DNA of 26,608 bases from a virus, in IMG/VR virus record IMGVR_UViG_3300037225_000069, positions 1 to 26,608 of that record; one strand, 5' to 3'. How positions within the stretch are numbered: position 1 is the first letter of the stretch; the number at the start of each line of letters is the position of its first letter. The position numbers and the translations under genes are program-made. The notes under the pieces were generated by a model. It did no database searches. It was not told the origin of the DNA and saw only the letters and a list, made by a program, of their open reading frames with translations. Below, in pieces: positions 325 through 22,562 of this stretch.

Positions 325-1476
325 TTACCTGTCTACCGGGACCGTTTCGCCAAACGGCGCAACAGCTGCGGTATCGGTTGATAGCCATAGCACGGGGAAG
401 TTTGGAGCGGTATCCGGGAATGTGCCGTCAAGGTCACTAATGCAAACGGCACAGCACGCGGTCCCTTCATCCTCAATTGCCTTTAGTACAGGCCGGAAGT
501 CAGTCCCGCCCCCGCCCTTTGGTTGCCATGTTAACGGGTCCCCCCGTTCCAAACGTTGCACGTGAGCAACTTTGGTATCAGCAAAGTACAGGGTAACCCC
601 GGCAGGATCACACTCGTCTATCGTGCTTTGGACTATGCCGCAAGCATAGGCTAGTGACGTTTGATCGATACTCCCGGATGTGTCAATGAATACCGCAATA
701 TCTCCCAGCGCTTTGGACTCAAGCGCAGGCAGATACAATCCTTGACTGATATACCGGGCATTAGGGCGGGACCATGAATAATCCCCGGTTGACCGCTCAC
801 TAAAGAATCTGAGCAATAGGGAGCGGATATCGATTAGAGGCTTTATAGCAGCCTCAATTGTGCGGGCAAGTCCCCCCGGCAACTTGCCTTGCATTTTCGC
901 GGCATTCATAGCTTGACTTGCTTTTTGTTTCCATTCCTGCTCAGTGGGAGCGGGGTCCCCGTCACTATCGGGACCTATAGGCGCGTCCCTCACTTCCCCC
1001 AATGGGTCAGGGGTCCCCTTACCCTGTCCCTGTTGCGGTGTACCTTGCCCTTGCCCGTTACCGGGGTCCGGCTTATCCTCTTCCCCTTGCCGTGCATATA
1101 TCCACTCTGAAGACTTGCCTGCCTCATCCCCGGATGGATATAACGCACCTTGCGGCAAGGTAAAACCGCTCTCGGATAGCTCCCGGTTGATTGACTTGTC
1201 GCAGGCGATATTCCAGTTCTTAGAGTCCCGCCCGCCCCTGCGCCATGGGTGACCGCAGGCACAGTGCATGACTTCGTGAGCGATTAGGGCGGTGGTTTGG
1301 TCATGCGTCAAGGTATCAATAAACGTGGGATTGTATCCCAGCGAACGGCCATTGACCCATGCCGTATCGGTTGACGGGTCACACTCCATTTTCAGTGATA
1401 ACGCAAGGGACCCGAAGAATGGCTGCTCTAATACAAGCGCTGTGCGGGCAGCGGTGACTTTACTCTGAGCGGACAT
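325..1476 (-). CDS. HExxH / VWA-like domain protein (DUF2201-type)
   Basis: A protein of 383 residues. The N-terminal part is a putative metallopeptidase domain with HEVMH at residues 67-71, a further His at 76, and a following WNIACD segment (88-93), as in DUF2201 N-terminal domains. Residues 132-180 form a Gly/Gln/Pro/Asp-rich linker. The C-terminal part is VWA-like, with a MIDAS-type DTSGS at 265-269 and a later GGGGTDF. Proteins of this kind are paired with MoxR AAA+ ATPases and are thought to act as chaperone or metal-insertion partners. The stop of the upstream DUF3150 gene overlaps this ATG by one base (TAATG), and GGGGGT precedes the start, so the two are translationally coupled. The role in the phage is not known. 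Confidence 0.85.
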   Translation of the reverse strand: MSAQSKVTAARTALVLEQPFFGSLALSLKMECDPSTDTAWVNGRSLGYNPTFIDTLTHDQTTALIAHEVMHCACGHPWRRGGRDSKNWNIACDKSINRELSESGFTLPQGALYPSGDEAGKSSEWIYARQGEEDKPDPGNGQGQGTPQQGQGKGTPDPLGEVRDAPIGPDSDGDPAPTEQEWKQKASQAMNAAKMQGKLPGGLARTIEAAIKPLIDIRSLLLRFFSERSTGDYSWSRPNARYISQGLYLPALESKALGDIAVFIDTSGSIDQTSLAYACGIVQSTIDECDPAGVTLYFADTKVAHVQRLERGDPLTWQPKGGGGTDFRPVLKAIEDEGTACCAVCISDLDGTFPDTAPNFPVLWLSTDTAAVAPFGETVPVDR

Positions 1477-2345
1477 TACTTACCCCCGTATAAATTGCCG
1501 TAAGTTGCGGTCATTGCGTCAAGAATGGCCTGCGCTTCAGTTGCCACGTCAACACGAACGGCGGGATTATCGCGGATGGTTTGGGGTTCACTGGCTGCTA
1601 ATAGCTCAGTTTGACGGCGCAGGGCCTCAAGTTTGGTATCATCCGCAAGGTTCAACCGTGTGAGGATATCGCACAATTCGCGGGCGTTACCGATGAGGGA
1701 ATCCCGGAAGATTCCAGCGGGGTCTGCAAGTTTGCCCTGTATCTTTGATACCGTGTCATAAAGACGTTGCACGGCATCCTGCTGCGCCTCAGAGAATGCT
1801 TGCTTGACCCTTTGCTCAGTCCGGGCAGCTATAGCTTCGATCTCCCCCGCCGCAAGGGTAACGCGGAAGTCAGTCCCGCAAGGTACAGGCGCATATTCTA
1901 CGCTCCATGCATACCGTGACCTTACATCGGAAGGGTAATCGGTATCAGAGTACATACCGTTTAGGATTACCCTTGCCTGCTCTTGTAATGCCGGATAATC
2001 GCGGGCAAAGTCCGCGAGCAAGGAATCTGCCGTATGCATCCCCGCCCGTACCATATCGGTATACGGTTGATAATTCTTGACTGGAAGGATTCTCCATCCG
2101 TCATCGCTCCATGCGAGAGTTTGGGCATAATGCTTGACTCTCAAGTCCGCAATGTGCGAAACAAGCGCTTTGTATGCAGGCGCATCTCCCGGCAGCAGGC
2201 ACTTATTGTATCGTCCCGCGTCGATTGTAGTGTTGTGAGCGGTTGCGGTCTCTTGTGATACCTTGCGGTCATACTTGCGAGCGCTCCATGCGGAGATGCG
2301 CAAGGAAACAAGCATTGCCCGTGTATGCATATCTGAATTCGTCAT
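1476..2345 (-). CDS. DUF3150-like protein
   Basis: About 289 residues. The N-terminal segment LVSLRISAWSARK (about residues 12-24) and the general layout, an alpha-helical charged protein lying between a MoxR ATPase and a VWA-like protein, match the DUF3150 family. That family has no established biochemical function. The start chosen is ATG at 2343-2345, with GGAG nine bases upstream. ATG at 2358-2360 and TTG at 2394-2396 are in frame but have poorer ribosome sites. It is the middle gene of a three-gene operon, 53 bases after the MoxR stop if the chosen start is right, and its stop overlaps the next gene by one base. Confidence 0.7.
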   Translation of the reverse strand: MTNSDMHTRAMLVSLRISAWSARKYDRKVSQETATAHNTTIDAGRYNKCLLPGDAPAYKALVSHIADLRVKHYAQTLAWSDDGWRILPVKNYQPYTDMVRAGMHTADSLLADFARDYPALQEQARVILNGMYSDTDYPSDVRSRYAWSVEYAPVPCGTDFRVTLAAGEIEAIAARTEQRVKQAFSEAQQDAVQRLYDTVSKIQGKLADPAGIFRDSLIGNARELCDILTRLNLADDTKLEALRRQTELLAASEPQTIRDNPAVRVDVATEAQAILDAMTATYGNLYGGK

Positions 2346-2398
2346 TTTCGTTTGCTCCATTCCTGAATTCCGGTATACGTTCCGGTAACGGTGCAAGG

Positions 2399-3430
2399 TT
2401 AACGGCCTGAAATAAGTTGGCCAAACTCCCCGGAATTCATTCTCACGAATGAATCTGTATACTGGATTTTCTCATCCCGCCTTATAGCGTCCCGCACCAT
2501 AAGAACGGCAAACTCCCCCCGCCCGGCTTCAGTGACCATCCGGTTAGCATAGGTTGCAATACGGGCAAAGTTAGTTTCGTTTGCACGTGCCGCGAGTCCA
2601 ACTGATACCGCGTACAATTCCGATGGTTTGGTAGGAATTGCAGCCTTATCGGGATTCATTAGAATCGCGTCAAGGTTAACAAGTGACTTGACCATGGAGC
2701 GGAATGTCAAATACTCCAAACTTGCGCCTTCTCCAACCGCTCCCGCCATGGCTATGGCTTCGATATCGGCGGGGAGATTAAGCGCTTCGAGTTTGGCAAG
2801 ATGTGCCCATGTACGGGGGACCGGACTGTTAGTCAAGTCCGCAGTTGCCTCAAACTTGGCTAACAGTTCCGGGCGGAACCTTAGAAAAGCAATGAGTGTT
2901 GCGGGGATGCCGTTCGAGAATGCCCATTGACTCCATGAGCCAATATCGGGTTCCAGTTCCACGATTGACACAAAACGGGATTTTACAGGTTCAAGGATAC
3001 CGGATACTCCAGCGCGGTCAATGCGCCGGTTAGTTGCGCCGATAAACGTAATGCAATCGGGCAATACCTTGCCGTTTATTTGACGGGCAAGGAATAGCTG
3101 CATACATGCGGCCTGTACAGCGGGGGAAGCCTGTCCAAGATCGTCAAAAAACCAAACAGTTTGACGGGTAGCATTGAGAGCCGTTGCAAGGTTGCCAAAC
3201 GGCAGGAATGTTGCGGTCCCGCTCGCCATTCCCCAAGGGAGTCCCTTATAATCTGTAGGGTCACAAACGGCGGGATGTTCGATGAGCAAGTCATAGGAAA
3301 GTGACGCGGATACACTTTCCACTATATCGGACTTGCCGCATCCCGGCATTCCGGTAATGAGCAAGGGCAAACGGGCGGGGACCATTGACTTTAGAACTGT
3401 TTGCAACTGAGCAGCATTGATAACGGGCAT
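2399..3430 (-). CDS. MoxR-type AAA+ ATPase
   Basis: A protein of 343 residues. Walker A is GMPGCGKS at residues 27-34 and Walker B is WFFDDLGQA at 93-101. The sensor-1-like stretch FIGATNR is at 129-135 and a probable arginine-finger segment (EPVKSRF) is at 147-153. This set is typical of MoxR ATPases, which couple ATP hydrolysis to remodelling of a partner, usually through a VWA-domain adaptor. Such an adaptor is encoded two genes downstream. GGAG lies eight bases before the ATG. It is the first gene of the minus-strand operon. The second acidic Walker B residue is Asp instead of the commoner Glu, a change I expect in phage-type members. Confidence 0.9.
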   Translation of the reverse strand: MPVINAAQLQTVLKSMVPARLPLLITGMPGCGKSDIVESVSASLSYDLLIEHPAVCDPTDYKGLPWGMASGTATFLPFGNLATALNATRQTVWFFDDLGQASPAVQAACMQLFLARQINGKVLPDCITFIGATNRRIDRAGVSGILEPVKSRFVSIVELEPDIGSWSQWAFSNGIPATLIAFLRFRPELLAKFEATADLTNSPVPRTWAHLAKLEALNLPADIEAIAMAGAVGEGASLEYLTFRSMVKSLVNLDAILMNPDKAAIPTKPSELYAVSVGLAARANETNFARIATYANRMVTEAGRGEFAVLMVRDAIRRDEKIQYTDSFVRMNSGEFGQLISGR

Positions 3431-4810: not shown

Positions 4811-5314
4811 ATGGACGCTACAAAGCCAACATCATTGAGAATTCCAGATGAAATAATTGCGTTCGCTGAGGAAATAGCGAAGGCTAAAGAATGGAGTCGT
4901 GCCAAGGTTTTGGTGCGGTCGATAGAGTGTGGTCTGCCGCTGGTAGGAAATAGGACATTAAAGGGCTACCAGCAGAATCACGATCAAGCCGAGGCGAATT
5001 TAATTAAGGTGGAGGGGAATAATGCGGAAATTGCGACCGGGGGTAGCGCGGGCGTGGCGGCGGATAAAGGTTTGGCGGGAAATAAACGCGGCGTTCAAAA
5101 AGGCGCTGCCGTGGATCGTGGCAAACTTTTACGCGGAGACGCCGGTACAGCGGTTATTGAGGGAGCGTTCACAGAAAACCCAATAGCTGCGCCTCAGATG
5201 TGCGCGTATACGGAGTACGACATGGAGACGGGCGAAACGTACAGATGCGGCAGGACGGTTCATGGGCCGAAGGTTAAGCATACGAGGGGGAGAGGGTGTA
5301 ATGAGCGGAATTAA
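4811..5314 (+). CDS. Ribbon-helix-helix-like DNA-binding protein with C-terminal Cys/His motif
   Basis: 167 residues from ATG 4811. The earlier in-frame ATG at 4793 falls between the -35 and -10. The first 45 residues read as a ribbon-helix-helix domain: a short strand (PTSLRIPDE), then two helices (IIAFAEEIAKAKEW, SRAKVLVRSIECGL). A Gly/Ala/Lys-rich middle follows. The C-terminus has Cys-x14-Cys followed by two His, in the segment CAYTEYDMETGETYRCG...HGPKVKH, a likely small zinc-binding module. The first gene of a long cluster is a natural place for a repressor. The end overlaps the DUF2283 gene by 14 bases. Confidence 0.6.
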   Translation: MDATKPTSLRIPDEIIAFAEEIAKAKEWSRAKVLVRSIECGLPLVGNRTLKGYQQNHDQAEANLIKVEGNNAEIATGGSAGVAADKGLAGNKRGVQKGAAVDRGKLLRGDAGTAVIEGAFTENPIAAPQMCAYTEYDMETGETYRCGRTVHGPKVKHTRGRGCNERN

Positions 5315-7816: not shown

Positions 7817-8016
7817 TGGACGGCTTGAGCAAAATGCGCCCTCGCGCTCAGATGGTAGCGTTCTTTATTTCACAGGGATGCGACCGTGAAGAAATCAAGG
7901 AGCGCATGGGAATCAGCGAAGACAGTCTCAAGAAATACTTCTCTGAGATATTCCATACCGTACAAGCTAAGAACCAGATTCAGGCGATGTGGCGCATACG
8001 AACGCTGATCTTTTGA
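7816..8016 (+). CDS. Stand-alone LuxR-type helix-turn-helix protein
   Basis: 66 residues from ATG 7816, overlapping the previous stop as TGATG. The central part, DREEIKERMGISEDSLKKYF, followed by a helix ending in NQIQAM, fits the GerE/LuxR helix-turn-helix with its usual closing helix. There is no sensor domain, so it is a bare DNA-binding module, probably a regulator of phage genes. Target unknown. Confidence 0.7.
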   Translation: MDGLSKMRPRAQMVAFFISQGCDREEIKERMGISEDSLKKYFSEIFHTVQAKNQIQAMWRIRTLIF

Positions 8017-8033
8017 GAATAAGGGAGAGGAAT

Positions 8034-8561
8034 ATGGGACTGAATCCAAGTAACGGAATTGCGGCGAGAACGAATCTAGAAGCGCATGTTTTCCCGAATC
8101 TGGCACGAAGAACCTGTAATGGTGCGGCAGAGAACTATCCTGAAACCAAACTTAAGCCTGTGTTTGAGGAAGTCGATGCGGCGGTTCGGGCGGAATTGAT
8201 TGAGGCTGGTATCTTAGACCCCGACAACATAGACCACGGTAATTACATGGAGAACGAGTGTACAAGGAAGGCGGGGAACGGTTGCTATAAAGAAGTTCCG
8301 TGCTCAATCTTTGCCGCAAAGCACGGATGGGTATTCGAGCGGCGCTGGTACTACTATGCCGCCAAAGGGCCAGGAATCCCTCCAGACAAGGCGGAAGAGT
8401 TTCATGAGACTTGGGGCACACAGGTTCGCGTGGAAGGGCACTGTGGCTGTCCTTCACCCTTGGAATACTGTCATGGGTTTGCTGTTGGGATTTACCACAT
8501 CGACACACAGGAAGGGCTTAACGCTTTTGTGAAACTGCTGGCGTCGATCTACAGAGCATAA
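8034..8561 (+). CDS. Cys-rich hypothetical phage protein
   Basis: 175 residues from ATG 8034, with GGGAGAGG five bases upstream. Seven Cys lie in three groups (around NECTRKAGNGCYKEVPC, GHCGCPSP and EYCHG), suggesting metal binding. It ends with a helical segment. No known family is recognised. A 17-base gap separates it from the HTH gene. Confidence 0.6.
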   Translation: MGLNPSNGIAARTNLEAHVFPNLARRTCNGAAENYPETKLKPVFEEVDAAVRAELIEAGILDPDNIDHGNYMENECTRKAGNGCYKEVPCSIFAAKHGWVFERRWYYYAAKGPGIPPDKAEEFHETWGTQVRVEGHCGCPSPLEYCHGFAVGIYHIDTQEGLNAFVKLLASIYRA

Positions 8562-8570
8562 GGGAGCGGA

Positions 8571-8801
8571 ATGAACATTGAAGAGGAACTCGCGACGTGT
8601 AAGGCTAACCTTTCTGGTCATCAGGATCGCTCTATGCGGTACATAGTTGACTTAGATAACCAAAGAGAAAGAATACAGGAATTGAAGAATGTAGTTTCGA
8701 TTGCGTATCATGCCTTGCGCAGTTATCAGTACGGCAACAGTTCTACCGATTTGGCGCAGGAAATTGCAGATCAATGCTATAAGGCGCTGGAGGATAAGTA
8801 A
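8571..8801 (+). CDS. Small coiled-coil protein
   Basis: 76 residues, largely helical and charged, with GGGAGCGG just before the ATG. Residues 1-40 have heptad-like spacing of Leu and Ile. The stop overlaps the ATG of the Acb2/Tad1-type gene by one base (TAATG). Function unknown. Confidence 0.55.
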   Translation: MNIEEELATCKANLSGHQDRSMRYIVDLDNQRERIQELKNVVSIAYHALRSYQYGNSSTDLAQEIADQCYKALEDK

Positions 8802-9274
8802 TGGGCATTGACCGAGCGACAGGCAAAGACTTCACGATTGAGGATAGGTGCATGAAGCATACACCTGAGTATCCTGACGGCTCTTGGCTTCATCTTGTCG
8901 ATGGGAAAGTAGAGATCGCGACAGGATATTTTTCTAAGGAGTACCCTGATAAACCATCGCCCTACTTTAACAGCGGTCCACCGTTTGTGTTTATGGAAAC
9001 TGCTGAGTGGCCTTGGGACTTTACCAAAGAAAAGGAGCAAACAATGATTGCACAATCGATTCTAGATAACTGGTTCACCTATCACGCTCCTAACCATGAG
9101 CAATTGGTAGCCTACGAAAAACTGCGCAGCGATGCCCGGATTTTCGCCAACACCATTAACGAACTGGTCCCCGATGGGCCAGACAAAACTGTTGCGATTC
9201 GTAAGCTGAGAGAATGTACAATGACAGCCAATGCTGCCATTGCATGTAACCAAGGAATCACACGCGAACCGTAA
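8801..9274 (+). CDS. Acb2/Tad1-type cyclic-nucleotide sponge with N-terminal extension
   Basis: 157 residues. The C-terminal 76 residues (82-157) carry the Acb2/Tad1 hairpin-domain pattern: an aromatic FTYHAP start, YEKLRSDARIFANTI, VPDGPDKTVAIRKLRE and TANAAIACNQ. Acb2 proteins sequester cyclic di- and trinucleotides and thereby block CBASS, with related activity against Thoeris. The first 81 residues are an unrecognised extension rich in aromatic and acidic residues. The internal, in-frame ATG at 9044 has an ideal ribosome site, so a short Acb2-like protein may also be made, or may be the main product. Overlaps the previous stop by one base. Confidence 0.75.
   Translation: MGIDRATGKDFTIEDRCMKHTPEYPDGSWLHLVDGKVEIATGYFSKEYPDKPSPYFNSGPPFVFMETAEWPWDFTKEKEQTMIAQSILDNWFTYHAPNHEQLVAYEKLRSDARIFANTINELVPDGPDKTVAIRKLRECTMTANAAIACNQGITREP
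9032..9046 (+). promoter_or_regulatory. Internal ribosome binding site and in-frame start
   Basis: AAGGAG at 9032-9037, a 6-base spacer, then ATG at 9044-9046, in frame with the gene starting at 8801. The predicted product is 76 residues and consists only of the sponge domain. This site is stronger than the one for the outer start. Confidence 0.6.
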
Positions 9275-9300: not shown

Positions 9301-9678
9301 ATGGCGAAGTTCCGTAAAAAACCGGTAGTTATCGAAGCTACTCAATGGTTTAAGAATGGCGATCACCCAAACGACTATGGCAATGAAGTTATTGGATTCG
9401 AGAATAATCAACCGCGAACATGGACTGGAGTAGATGCGCGGGAAATGGGTTGGGAAGGTCAGGTGGTTCGTTATTTTCGGCGTCCAGATATGTCAGGTGA
9501 AACGCTATGCAAACATTGCAGCGTAAGGATGCACGAGCATGGATGGATCGACACACTTGAAGGTGGTCATATCGTTTGCCCCGGCGATTGGGTAATTACC
9601 GGGGTGGTTGGAGAGAAGTATCCCTGCAAAGATCAAATCTTTAAGGCTACCTACGAGCCGGTTAGCGATTCTCAATGA
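9301..9678 (+). CDS. PGDYG-type phage protein
   Basis: 125 residues. It opens MAKFRKKPVVIEATQW, has WIDTLEGGHIVCPGDWVITGV in the last third and ends in KATYEP. This is a very common small phage protein of the PGDYG type, of unknown function. Two CxxC-like Cys (CKHC) and two His sit in the middle and may bind metal. GGGGAG lies upstream. It overlaps the next gene by ATGA. Confidence 0.7.
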   Translation: MAKFRKKPVVIEATQWFKNGDHPNDYGNEVIGFENNQPRTWTGVDAREMGWEGQVVRYFRRPDMSGETLCKHCSVRMHEHGWIDTLEGGHIVCPGDWVITGVVGEKYPCKDQIFKATYEPVSDSQ

Positions 9679-19683: not shown

Positions 19684-21843
19684 ATGTATAGCCGCAAAGT
19701 TATCGAGCAAAGACTAAACCTGTTTGCGGCCCAGAACGGGTGGATGCCTCAATATCACGCCCTTGAAGAAGTAGAAAAGTTCAAGGAGATGATGAATTCT
19801 ATTGTCAAGTTTGATAGCAACTCCAAGAGTACATGGATCAAATCAATTGCGCCTATGACAGCTAAGCGCAAGGCGGATATAAAGAGATTTATAGAAAATG
19901 AGATGGTGCTCTGTGGCCTCGATAGTAATTACTGGGAGAGCCGCTTCGCTTATGTGTGTAACGAGGCAGGACAGATTTACAAATATCAGCCGAGGCTATC
20001 GCAGCGCATTCTTGACGCAGTAATTTCCGATTTCGATGAGCAGCAAGTATCTATTGAATTGCTCATTTTGAAAGGTCGTCAACTAGGAGTTACATCTTGG
20101 ACGGCATTGAAATTTATCCGCCGTATGCTGTTTATCCCCCATACGCAGGCTGTCATGGCATCCGTCAAGGCGGAATCATCGCAGTTGATCGGGCGCATTC
20201 TGGATACATCTTATGATCGTTGTCCATATTGGCTAGTTCCTCTTAGGACTCCTAAAAAGTCATTTTCTAATGGTTCTATTCTTTCTGTGCAATCTGGTAT
20301 GCAGGCTACCGGCATCGCACAGGGCTGGACCCCGACCTGTATCCACATTTCCGAGATCGCAGACATCCCCGACGCCAAGAAGGTCATCGAAGAAGGTCTA
20401 TTACGCGCCACTCACTCATCTAAGAACCTATTCATGGTGTTTGAAGGTACAGGCGGCGGTAACACAGGATGGTTAGCGGATACGTGGAGAACAAGAAAAG
20501 AAAGTTGGCCAAAAGGTCAATCTCGCCTTTGCCCTATATTCATTCCATGGCCGATGTGTCCAGAGATTTATCCTCAACCAGACTGGATTCGTAAGTATCC
20601 TATTGAAAATAGCTGGAGACCGAATGAGACAACACGCAAGCATGTAACGCGCTGTGAGTCCTATGTTCGTAATACTCCCTATCTTGCCAAGGTAGCTGGA
20701 GCTAATTGGCGTATGCCGATTGAGCAGCAATGGTTCTGGGAATTCAACTATCTTGAAGCTGTAGGGAACCATAGCCAGAAAACATGGCTTGCCCAGATGC
20801 CAGCAGACGACTACGAAGCTCTTACCGGCGTCCATGACACAGTGTTCGATCCTGAAGTGATGGCTGAGGTAGAGGATAATGTTTATGAAATCATTACCGA
20901 AAGATCGACAGGAATAGAAGCCAAAGTACGTAGGGAACCAATGCAAGCCTACGCAATTACCGGACATTCAATAGATGAATCCTTTTATCCTGACGAGTCA
21001 ATTATAGACAGGCAAAAGTCAGTCCTCTCGATTTCATGGAAGTCGCATCGCGGCGAGGAATACAACTGGGACATGATTCCACTGCTCCCGATCAATGAAG
21101 AAATTGAAAAGGATACTTTTGATAAGCTATTAGTCTACGAACCACCAAAAGCAGGATATGACTATGCTTGTGGTGTAGATACGGCTGATGGTCTCGATAA
21201 AGAAGACGAAGAAAGAGCCTGTGCTTCGATCTCCAAGATTGGTACTGGATCGAACTACGATCAGCAGGCTTGTGAGCTTACCAGCCGCAGGATGAATCCC
21301 GCTCAAATGGTCCCGTTTGTGGCTTGCATGGCAACATGGTATGGCCAGAAGACAAAGGATCAAAGAGGGGTAAAATTTGCTATTGAGCAGATCAGGGGAC
21401 CGGGAGATACCTGTCAGAACCAATTGAAGATTATGGGGTTTAACTACCACCATGCCCCAAGGCGCTACGACTCGAAGAAGATTAAGGACGATTCCAAGCA
21501 TAAAGAAGGTTGGTACTCAACCTCATGGAGCGTACCTATTCTCATGACGCGCTTTGTGGAGGCTGTGAACGGAGGATGGTACATCCCTAAATCCAAATGG
21601 TTGATTGAGGAATGTAAAACTCTGGAAAGGCATATCACAGGAAGCAAATCCAAGATGGAGCACAGGAGTGGACAGTTTGACGATAGAGTGAGAGCTTCAG
21701 CACAGAGCTATTTCACAACTCATGACTTGGATGATCTTGCTCAAAGATCACAGAAAAGGTATGCTTTACCTAAGAAGCGGAAGGCTGACCCAAACCAAGG
21801 GCGCTGCAACTTGAACTCAATATCAGTGGGAGAGGATGAATGA
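19684..21843 (+). CDS. terL: Terminase large subunit
   Basis: 719 residues. The ATPase half has a Walker A-like LKGRQLGVTS at 129-138 and a Walker B-like CIHISEIAD at 219-227, with Glu224 as likely catalytic residue and GTGGGN (255-260) as a likely coupling motif. The nuclease half has an RNase H-like fold with acids Asp499 (GVDTADG), Glu568 (FAIEQ) and Asp666/Asp667 (QFDDR). The protein pumps DNA into the prohead and cuts the concatemer. ATG 19684 has AGGTGAGAT upstream. The stop overlaps the Tat-signal paralog (ATGA). It is long for the family, partly owing to an N-terminal extension of about 90 residues. Confidence 0.9.
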   Translation: MYSRKVIEQRLNLFAAQNGWMPQYHALEEVEKFKEMMNSIVKFDSNSKSTWIKSIAPMTAKRKADIKRFIENEMVLCGLDSNYWESRFAYVCNEAGQIYKYQPRLSQRILDAVISDFDEQQVSIELLILKGRQLGVTSWTALKFIRRMLFIPHTQAVMASVKAESSQLIGRILDTSYDRCPYWLVPLRTPKKSFSNGSILSVQSGMQATGIAQGWTPTCIHISEIADIPDAKKVIEEGLLRATHSSKNLFMVFEGTGGGNTGWLADTWRTRKESWPKGQSRLCPIFIPWPMCPEIYPQPDWIRKYPIENSWRPNETTRKHVTRCESYVRNTPYLAKVAGANWRMPIEQQWFWEFNYLEAVGNHSQKTWLAQMPADDYEALTGVHDTVFDPEVMAEVEDNVYEIITERSTGIEAKVRREPMQAYAITGHSIDESFYPDESIIDRQKSVLSISWKSHRGEEYNWDMIPLLPINEEIEKDTFDKLLVYEPPKAGYDYACGVDTADGLDKEDEERACASISKIGTGSNYDQQACELTSRRMNPAQMVPFVACMATWYGQKTKDQRGVKFAIEQIRGPGDTCQNQLKIMGFNYHHAPRRYDSKKIKDDSKHKEGWYSTSWSVPILMTRFVEAVNGGWYIPKSKWLIEECKTLERHITGSKSKMEHRSGQFDDRVRASAQSYFTTHDLDDLAQRSQKRYALPKKRKADPNQGRCNLNSISVGEDE

Positions 21844-22562
21844 GCATGAACAGACGGTCATTTTTTAAGTTTTTAGGTATTGGTGCAGCTACGGCTGCGG
21901 TCGTTCCAAAGATGCTGTCAGAAACGCATAATAGTAATCGTCTTTGGGATATGCTTCCAGATGAAGTAAAAAGTTCACCGAACGGTGGTGCGATAGGAGG
22001 AATTGTATTTTTCGAGCAACCACGCGAAGGATACGACTACAGCATCGGAGTCCAAACTGGCGATGGTATATATCAAAATCCGTCAGTAGTTTCCGTAATG
22101 CGCGTAGGAAACGGAGACGAACCAGACGAACAAGTTGCCGAGTATACTTCACTAAATCAGGGTGGGAAACTGGCAACCAATATCGCCTACATAGCCCATA
22201 AATATGGGGAGAAATGCAAAGACTCCAGAGGACCGCTGATTGTGATCGAGCAGGTACAAGCACCAGGCGATACAGTACAGGATTTATTGAAGATCATGGG
22301 ATTCACGCGGTTCTATAAAGCCGTGAACGCCAAGGGGATAAAAAGAGACGGGTGGTATACGACAAGATTCAGTGGTCCGATGATGATGGATCGTTTCACG
22401 GCAGCAGTAGAAGAAGGTTGGTATAAGCCGAAATCTATATCGCTGCACATAGGAATGACGACATCAGAAGAAAGCTGTTTTAATCATCCTTCATATATGA
22501 GAGCAGCGGCCCAATCGTATGTAGGATTCCACGCATTTGAAGAGGATAAGAGAAATGTCTAA
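21840..22562 (+). CDS. Tat-signal paralog of the terL nuclease domain, apparent catalytic loss
   Basis: 240 residues. Residues 1-24 form a twin-arginine signal: NRRSFFKFLG, then a hydrophobic GAATAAVV. From about 58 to 230 the protein aligns with the nuclease half of terL just upstream: GYDYSIGVQTGDG against GYDYACGVDTADG, IEQVQAPGDT against IEQIRGPGDT, LKIMGF in both, and the GWY and RAAAQSYV / RASAQSYF segments. The first catalytic Asp is Gln72, the Glu is kept (Glu137), and the paired Asp motif is replaced by NHPSYM. So the nuclease is likely inactive. It starts at the terL stop (ATGA); ATG 21846 is an alternative. Exported, membrane-held or structural roles are all open. Confidence 0.75.
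   Translation: MSMNRRSFFKFLGIGAATAAVVPKMLSETHNSNRLWDMLPDEVKSSPNGGAIGGIVFFEQPREGYDYSIGVQTGDGIYQNPSVVSVMRVGNGDEPDEQVAEYTSLNQGGKLATNIAYIAHKYGEKCKDSRGPLIVIEQVQAPGDTVQDLLKIMGFTRFYKAVNAKGIKRDGWYTTRFSGPMMMDRFTAAVEEGWYKPKSISLHIGMTTSEESCFNHPSYMRAAAQSYVGFHAFEEDKRNV

Follow-up and report, generated by a model that had tools for sequence, protein, structure and literature searches.

An Acb2-type sponge gene that may retain its own start inside a longer open reading frame of a metagenomic virus

Introduction

CBASS-like defences use cyclic nucleotide signals, and the phage protein Acb2 acts as a sponge for them. The layout of its helices has been published (PMC12043709, PMC10419184), and Tyr8 of the T4 protein was found to be required for cyclic dinucleotide binding (PMC12657218). 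In Tad1, an N-terminal beta part precedes two helices, and sequence located ahead of the hairpin can accompany a different ligand range (PMC12043709).

A gene of this kind was examined in the 26,608-base metagenomic virus record IMGVR_UViG_3300037225_000069, the whole of which is referred to here as the window. The gene is an open reading frame (ORF) of 157 aa on the forward strand (coordinates 8801-9274), in which an 81-residue N-terminal extension (coordinates 8801-9043, forward strand) is followed by an Acb2-type hairpin domain, and its codon score is in frame throughout. An initial annotation had proposed that this one gene could yield both a long form, from the outer start at 8801, and a short form, from an internal ATG at 9044.

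Results

In a Pfam profile search, residues 93-149 of the long ORF (coordinates 9077-9247, forward strand) matched positions 1-58 of the Acb2_Tad1_hairpin model, PF24729, with 42.9 bits against a curated Pfam cut-off of 27 bits. The 76 aa short form (coordinates 9044-9274, forward strand) scored 45.0 bits by itself, bearing out the Acb2 pattern that had been noticed in the last 76 residues. Acb2 of T4 (Vs.4) covered the same model positions, 1-58, with 71.4 bits. The Tad1 protein of SBSphiJ7, a Bacillus phage, covered just positions 24-54 and lacked the Acb2 N-terminal segment (positions 1-23), which is complete in the window protein as it is in T4 Acb2. This coverage resolves the assignment of the hairpin domain, as judged from its sequence, towards Acb2 and away from Tad1. 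It is very improbable that the long protein is Tad1-like, with the extension serving as the Tad1 N-terminal beta-sheet and cADPR isomers as the ligands. Although Tad1 too has an N-terminal beta part before its two helices (PMC12043709), and the model of the long form puts two short strands at residues 29-40, the extension lies outside the complete Acb2 segment, which is missing from SBSphiJ7 Tad1 with its match to positions 24-54 only, and no sequence similarity was found between the extension and the N-terminus of SBSphiJ7 Tad1.

Tyr94 (coordinates 9080-9082, forward strand) is the equivalent of T4 Acb2 Tyr8, the residue involved in cyclic dinucleotide binding. Arg109 (coordinates 9125-9127, forward strand), located 15 residues after Tyr94, is nearly invariant in the family and occupies the place of T4 Acb2 Lys23 and of the Lys conserved in p26, a founding Acb2. 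Lys23, the basic residue 15 past Tyr8 in T4, presumably has a ligand-binding role. The position of T4 Phe82 is taken by Ala148 in the window protein and, as p26 likewise has Ala here, this is no argument against membership of the Acb2 group.

The AlphaFold2 model of the short form, built with 82 sequences, had a mean pLDDT of 91.5 and helices at residues 4-10, 21-41 and 46-68, giving a predicted arrangement, a short helix and a pair of long antiparallel ones, that equals the layout of Acb2. In a structural comparison, T4 Vs.4 (7uq2; Z 6.2) and Acb2 8h2x (Z 5.0) were listed amid unrelated helical bundles and were not prominent. Foldseek searches with the full-length and short-form models returned no significant match, Acb2 included, an outcome to be expected of so small a helical hairpin, and hhalign alignments to T4 Acb2 and to Tad1, each as a single sequence, gave too weak a signal for use. 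The product would, we infer, bind cyclic nucleotides and counter host defence. The short form is a full stand-alone Acb2-type sponge ORF that begins where the family canonically starts, and it probably acts as the principal sponge.

The extension, which the initial annotation had called unrecognised, was indeed found to have no relative in the collections searched. There was no match in Pfam, PHROGs or PADLOC. Only chance-level matches were obtained when IMG/VR was scanned, both with the extension itself and with a degenerate EWPWDF pattern, when phages were searched by tblastn, and when 396 genomes from the phylum of Acidicapsa and all fetched loci were searched. The extension is coding sequence, as its codon score was high in frame (+25.5 bits) and negative in the other two frames (-30.5 and -48.8 bits), where the genes of the window phage average 13.7 bits per 81 codons, and its GC3 resembles that of the neighbouring genes. 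Its predicted fold is of low confidence (pLDDT about 55-75), with a possible beta hairpin of two short strands near residues 29-40.

Several candidate identities for the extension were rejected, namely the YQSHK domain, the profile of which scores -0.4 bits, Tad2, which had been considered by eye and gave no Pfam match even at E 10, and the product of the gene immediately upstream of the hairpin gene in phage Tunturi_1, which the extension does not match. A frameshift error at the junction between extension and hairpin domain was not needed as an explanation, because the reading frame runs unbroken across it with in-frame codon usage.

The outer start, ATG 8801, is preceded by the Shine-Dalgarno (SD) sequence GGAGG (coordinates 8789-8793, forward strand; spacing 7), and the stop codon of a small upstream gene of 76 aa (coordinates 8571-8801, forward strand) overlaps it in the sequence TAATG, a context suited to translational coupling. 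A search for relatives of the gene upstream of this (coordinates 7989-8561) found none, hence no close relative of the window virus was available for comparison. The downstream neighbour (coordinates 9301-9678, forward strand) encodes a PHROG 419-type protein (KFRKKPVVIEA...GDWVITGV...YPCK), and a protein of this type is also found at most 2.5 kb from the hairpin gene in loci L035, L063, L041 and L033.

A set of 82 distinct relatives of the hairpin domain was assembled from IMG/VR and species genomes. A few of these may be false, and one, L095, was rejected as a methyltransferase-like protein by eye. The nearest sequence family is that of the small phage proteins of PHROG 1454 / 31113, such as Tunturi_1 gp101, which share the motif DNWFTYH...MTANAAIAC. 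Tunturi_1, which infects an Acidobacteria host, carries its hairpin gene as a stand-alone gene of 71 aa, and also provided the best phage match found for the window terminase (27.5% identity over 88%). Conservation among homologues had been named in the initial annotation as one point on which its proposal could fail, and none of the relatives found has the window's extension or its outer start.

The internal ATG at 9044 is preceded by AAGGAG (coordinates 9032-9037, forward strand) at a spacing of 6. Among 140 in-frame internal ATGs of the window's genes, only 3 have an SD sequence of at least 5 nt, ATG 9044 being one of them. When SD energy was combined with accessibility, ATG 9044 came 3rd among the 105 internal ATGs scored and 6th of 27 when compared with start sites including gene starts, and with a score of -3.0 it was stronger than the outer start at 8801 (+0.2). 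The top-ranked internal ATG in the window, at 5301, may be a mis-set gene start, suggesting that high scores of this kind tend to mark real starts. In 66 of the 82 distinct relatives an ATG or GTG is located 4-12 residues ahead of the DNWFTYH motif, with an SD sequence of at least 4 nt in 48 of those 66, and ATG 9044 stands 7 residues ahead of the same motif. As its position matches the start of most stand-alone relatives and its SD and accessibility rank is high, ATG 9044 was most likely inherited as the start codon of an acb2-like gene that once stood alone and to which an upstream ORF was joined in frame. The suggestion that it is a credible second start was thus upheld by its spacing, its rank and its agreement with the start of the relatives.

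Lys-Glu codons easily encode internal SD-like sites, which weighs against a nested start, and it can be argued that a single fused protein is made from 8801 only, with 9044 an SD-like site that arose by chance in a linker of Lys and Glu. The GGAGG sequence at spacing 7 and the stop-start overlap at the outer start would suit this reading, as would two fusions in other loci (L001 and L104, below) that have no internal start at their junction. However, ATG 9044 lies exactly at the family start position and exceeds the outer start in SD and accessibility, and production from 8801 only is accordingly regarded as improbable.

Other partners of the hairpin domain were found among the relatives. In L001 (coordinates 971-1501) and L104 (coordinates 1081-1806), a YQSHK-type domain (PHROG 872/11049) is fused ahead of the hairpin, and no internal start was found at either junction. 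In L102, L103, L139 and L148 the YQSHK-type and hairpin genes are separate neighbours. The YQSHK domain, a common phage domain of unknown function, was thus seen both fused to the hairpin gene and adjoining it, which on sequence grounds suggests a functional link between the two. In L004 (coordinates 1349-2119), a RyR domain (PF02026, 43.7 bits) lies behind the Acb2-type hairpin in one phage ORF. According to a recent report, phage RyR proteins break down cADPR signals or sequester them (PMC13232231), and the L004 protein, with two known anti-signal modules, is a candidate dual CBASS/Thoeris evasion protein.

In L085 (coordinates 2249-2692), an in-frame upstream ORF of 81 codons that is unrelated to that of the window runs on without a stop, and AAGGAGG precedes the canonical start. 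The GC content of this stretch is 34%. Judged by its sequence, L085 appears to be a second in-frame nested case with the arrangement seen in the window. Two stretches of hairpin domain are seemingly present in one ORF of L007 (coordinates 1505-2002), and in L262, L263 and L264, three genomes from the phylum of Acidicapsa, a hairpin-like domain occurs in open frames of ~400 codons with a conserved longer part after it. The hairpin family appears to tolerate N-terminal additions, every one different, with that of the window unique so far.

Discussion

The explanation that we favour, and hold to be moderately probable, is that the window carries an acb2-type gene with its ancestral start at 9044 kept inside a longer ORF, from which short and long forms are both made. 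An upstream ORF of 81 codons would have become continuous in frame with the acb2-type gene, giving the longer ORF, and the ancestral start, ATG 9044 with its AAGGAG, would have been retained inside it. The fusion could have been created by a single base change, for example loss of a stop at codon 9038, or by an assembly error. Ribosomes initiating at 9044 would give a typical Acb2 sponge of 76 residues, presumably a hexamer, and those initiating at 8801, coupled to the upstream gene, would produce a 157-residue form in which the extra N-terminal part may lie beside the ligand pocket. The long form is probably also made, and we infer that both forms are produced. Of the original proposal of one gene with two forms, the credible internal start therefore stands, but conservation of the long form, or selection for it, is unsupported, as the extension and outer start occur in no relative found, and the mixed hexamers or different ligands that it raised are speculative.

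It is possible, but rather unlikely, that two separate genes lie here, the 81-codon ORF and an acb2-like gene standing alone. The stop between them would then be missing through a mutation private to this virus or a mistake in sequencing or assembly, and the long form would be irrelevant. Most relatives are indeed stand-alone and start at the spot of 9044, the extension is common to none of them, and any of the last codons ahead of 9044 (AAA GAA AAG GAG CAA) could become a stop by a single base change. However, the continuous frame, with codon usage in frame across the junction, makes a frameshift unnecessary, and fusions to the hairpin domain do exist in L001, L104 and L004, which favours the nested gene. 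More doubtful still is an elaboration of the nested gene in which short and long sponges from the two starts co-assemble and the pocket-side extension shifts the range of trapped signals or shields the sponge from guards such as Panoptes.

Genes for CD-NTases (SMODS) were found in 6 of 149 sampled genomes from the phylum of Acidicapsa. CBASS is thus a possible target in a host from that phylum, to which the host of the window phage may belong. The locus is a case of an Acb2-type sponge in a phage whose terminase links it to phages of Acidobacteria. Directly after the terminase gene (coordinates 19684-21843), the window encodes a 240-residue protein (coordinates 21840-22562, forward strand) whose N-terminus is weakly TAT-like and which is 35% identical to residues 462-684 of the terminase, with the GVDTADG motif reading GVQTGDG. 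On this identity it appears to be a duplicated relative of the C-terminal (nuclease) part of the terminase. Elsewhere (coordinates 325-3430, reverse strand), genes for an AAA ATPase and a DUF2201 metallopeptidase/VWA protein form a MoxR/VWA-like set with an unknown gene in the middle.

The hairpin domain occurs fused to various partners, namely an orphan part of 81 residues in the window, RyR in L004 and YQSHK in L001 and L104, and if both starts in the window are used, this would be a simple way for phages to tune a sponge from one gene. L001, L104 and L004 resemble the window in having the hairpin domain and another part in one ORF. However, their partner domains differ from that of the window, and the junctions of L001 and L104 are without the internal start. 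The proteins of PHROG 1454 / 31113 are mostly stand-alone, whereas the window adds an extension in frame. Tad1 of SBSphiJ7 shares with the window protein the hairpin part of PF24729 and the presence of sequence N-terminal to it, but lacks the Acb2 N-terminal segment, and the two extensions have no sequence similarity. Closest in type is Acb2 itself (T4 Vs.4 and that of Pseudomonas phage p26), with which the window protein shares a full-length PF24729 match, the binding Tyr with a basic residue, a small stand-alone start and, in the model of its short form, a predicted Acb2-like fold of a short helix and a helical hairpin. It is distant from Acb2 in sequence, has Ala in place of T4 Phe82, as p26 does, and in its long form adds 81 residues.
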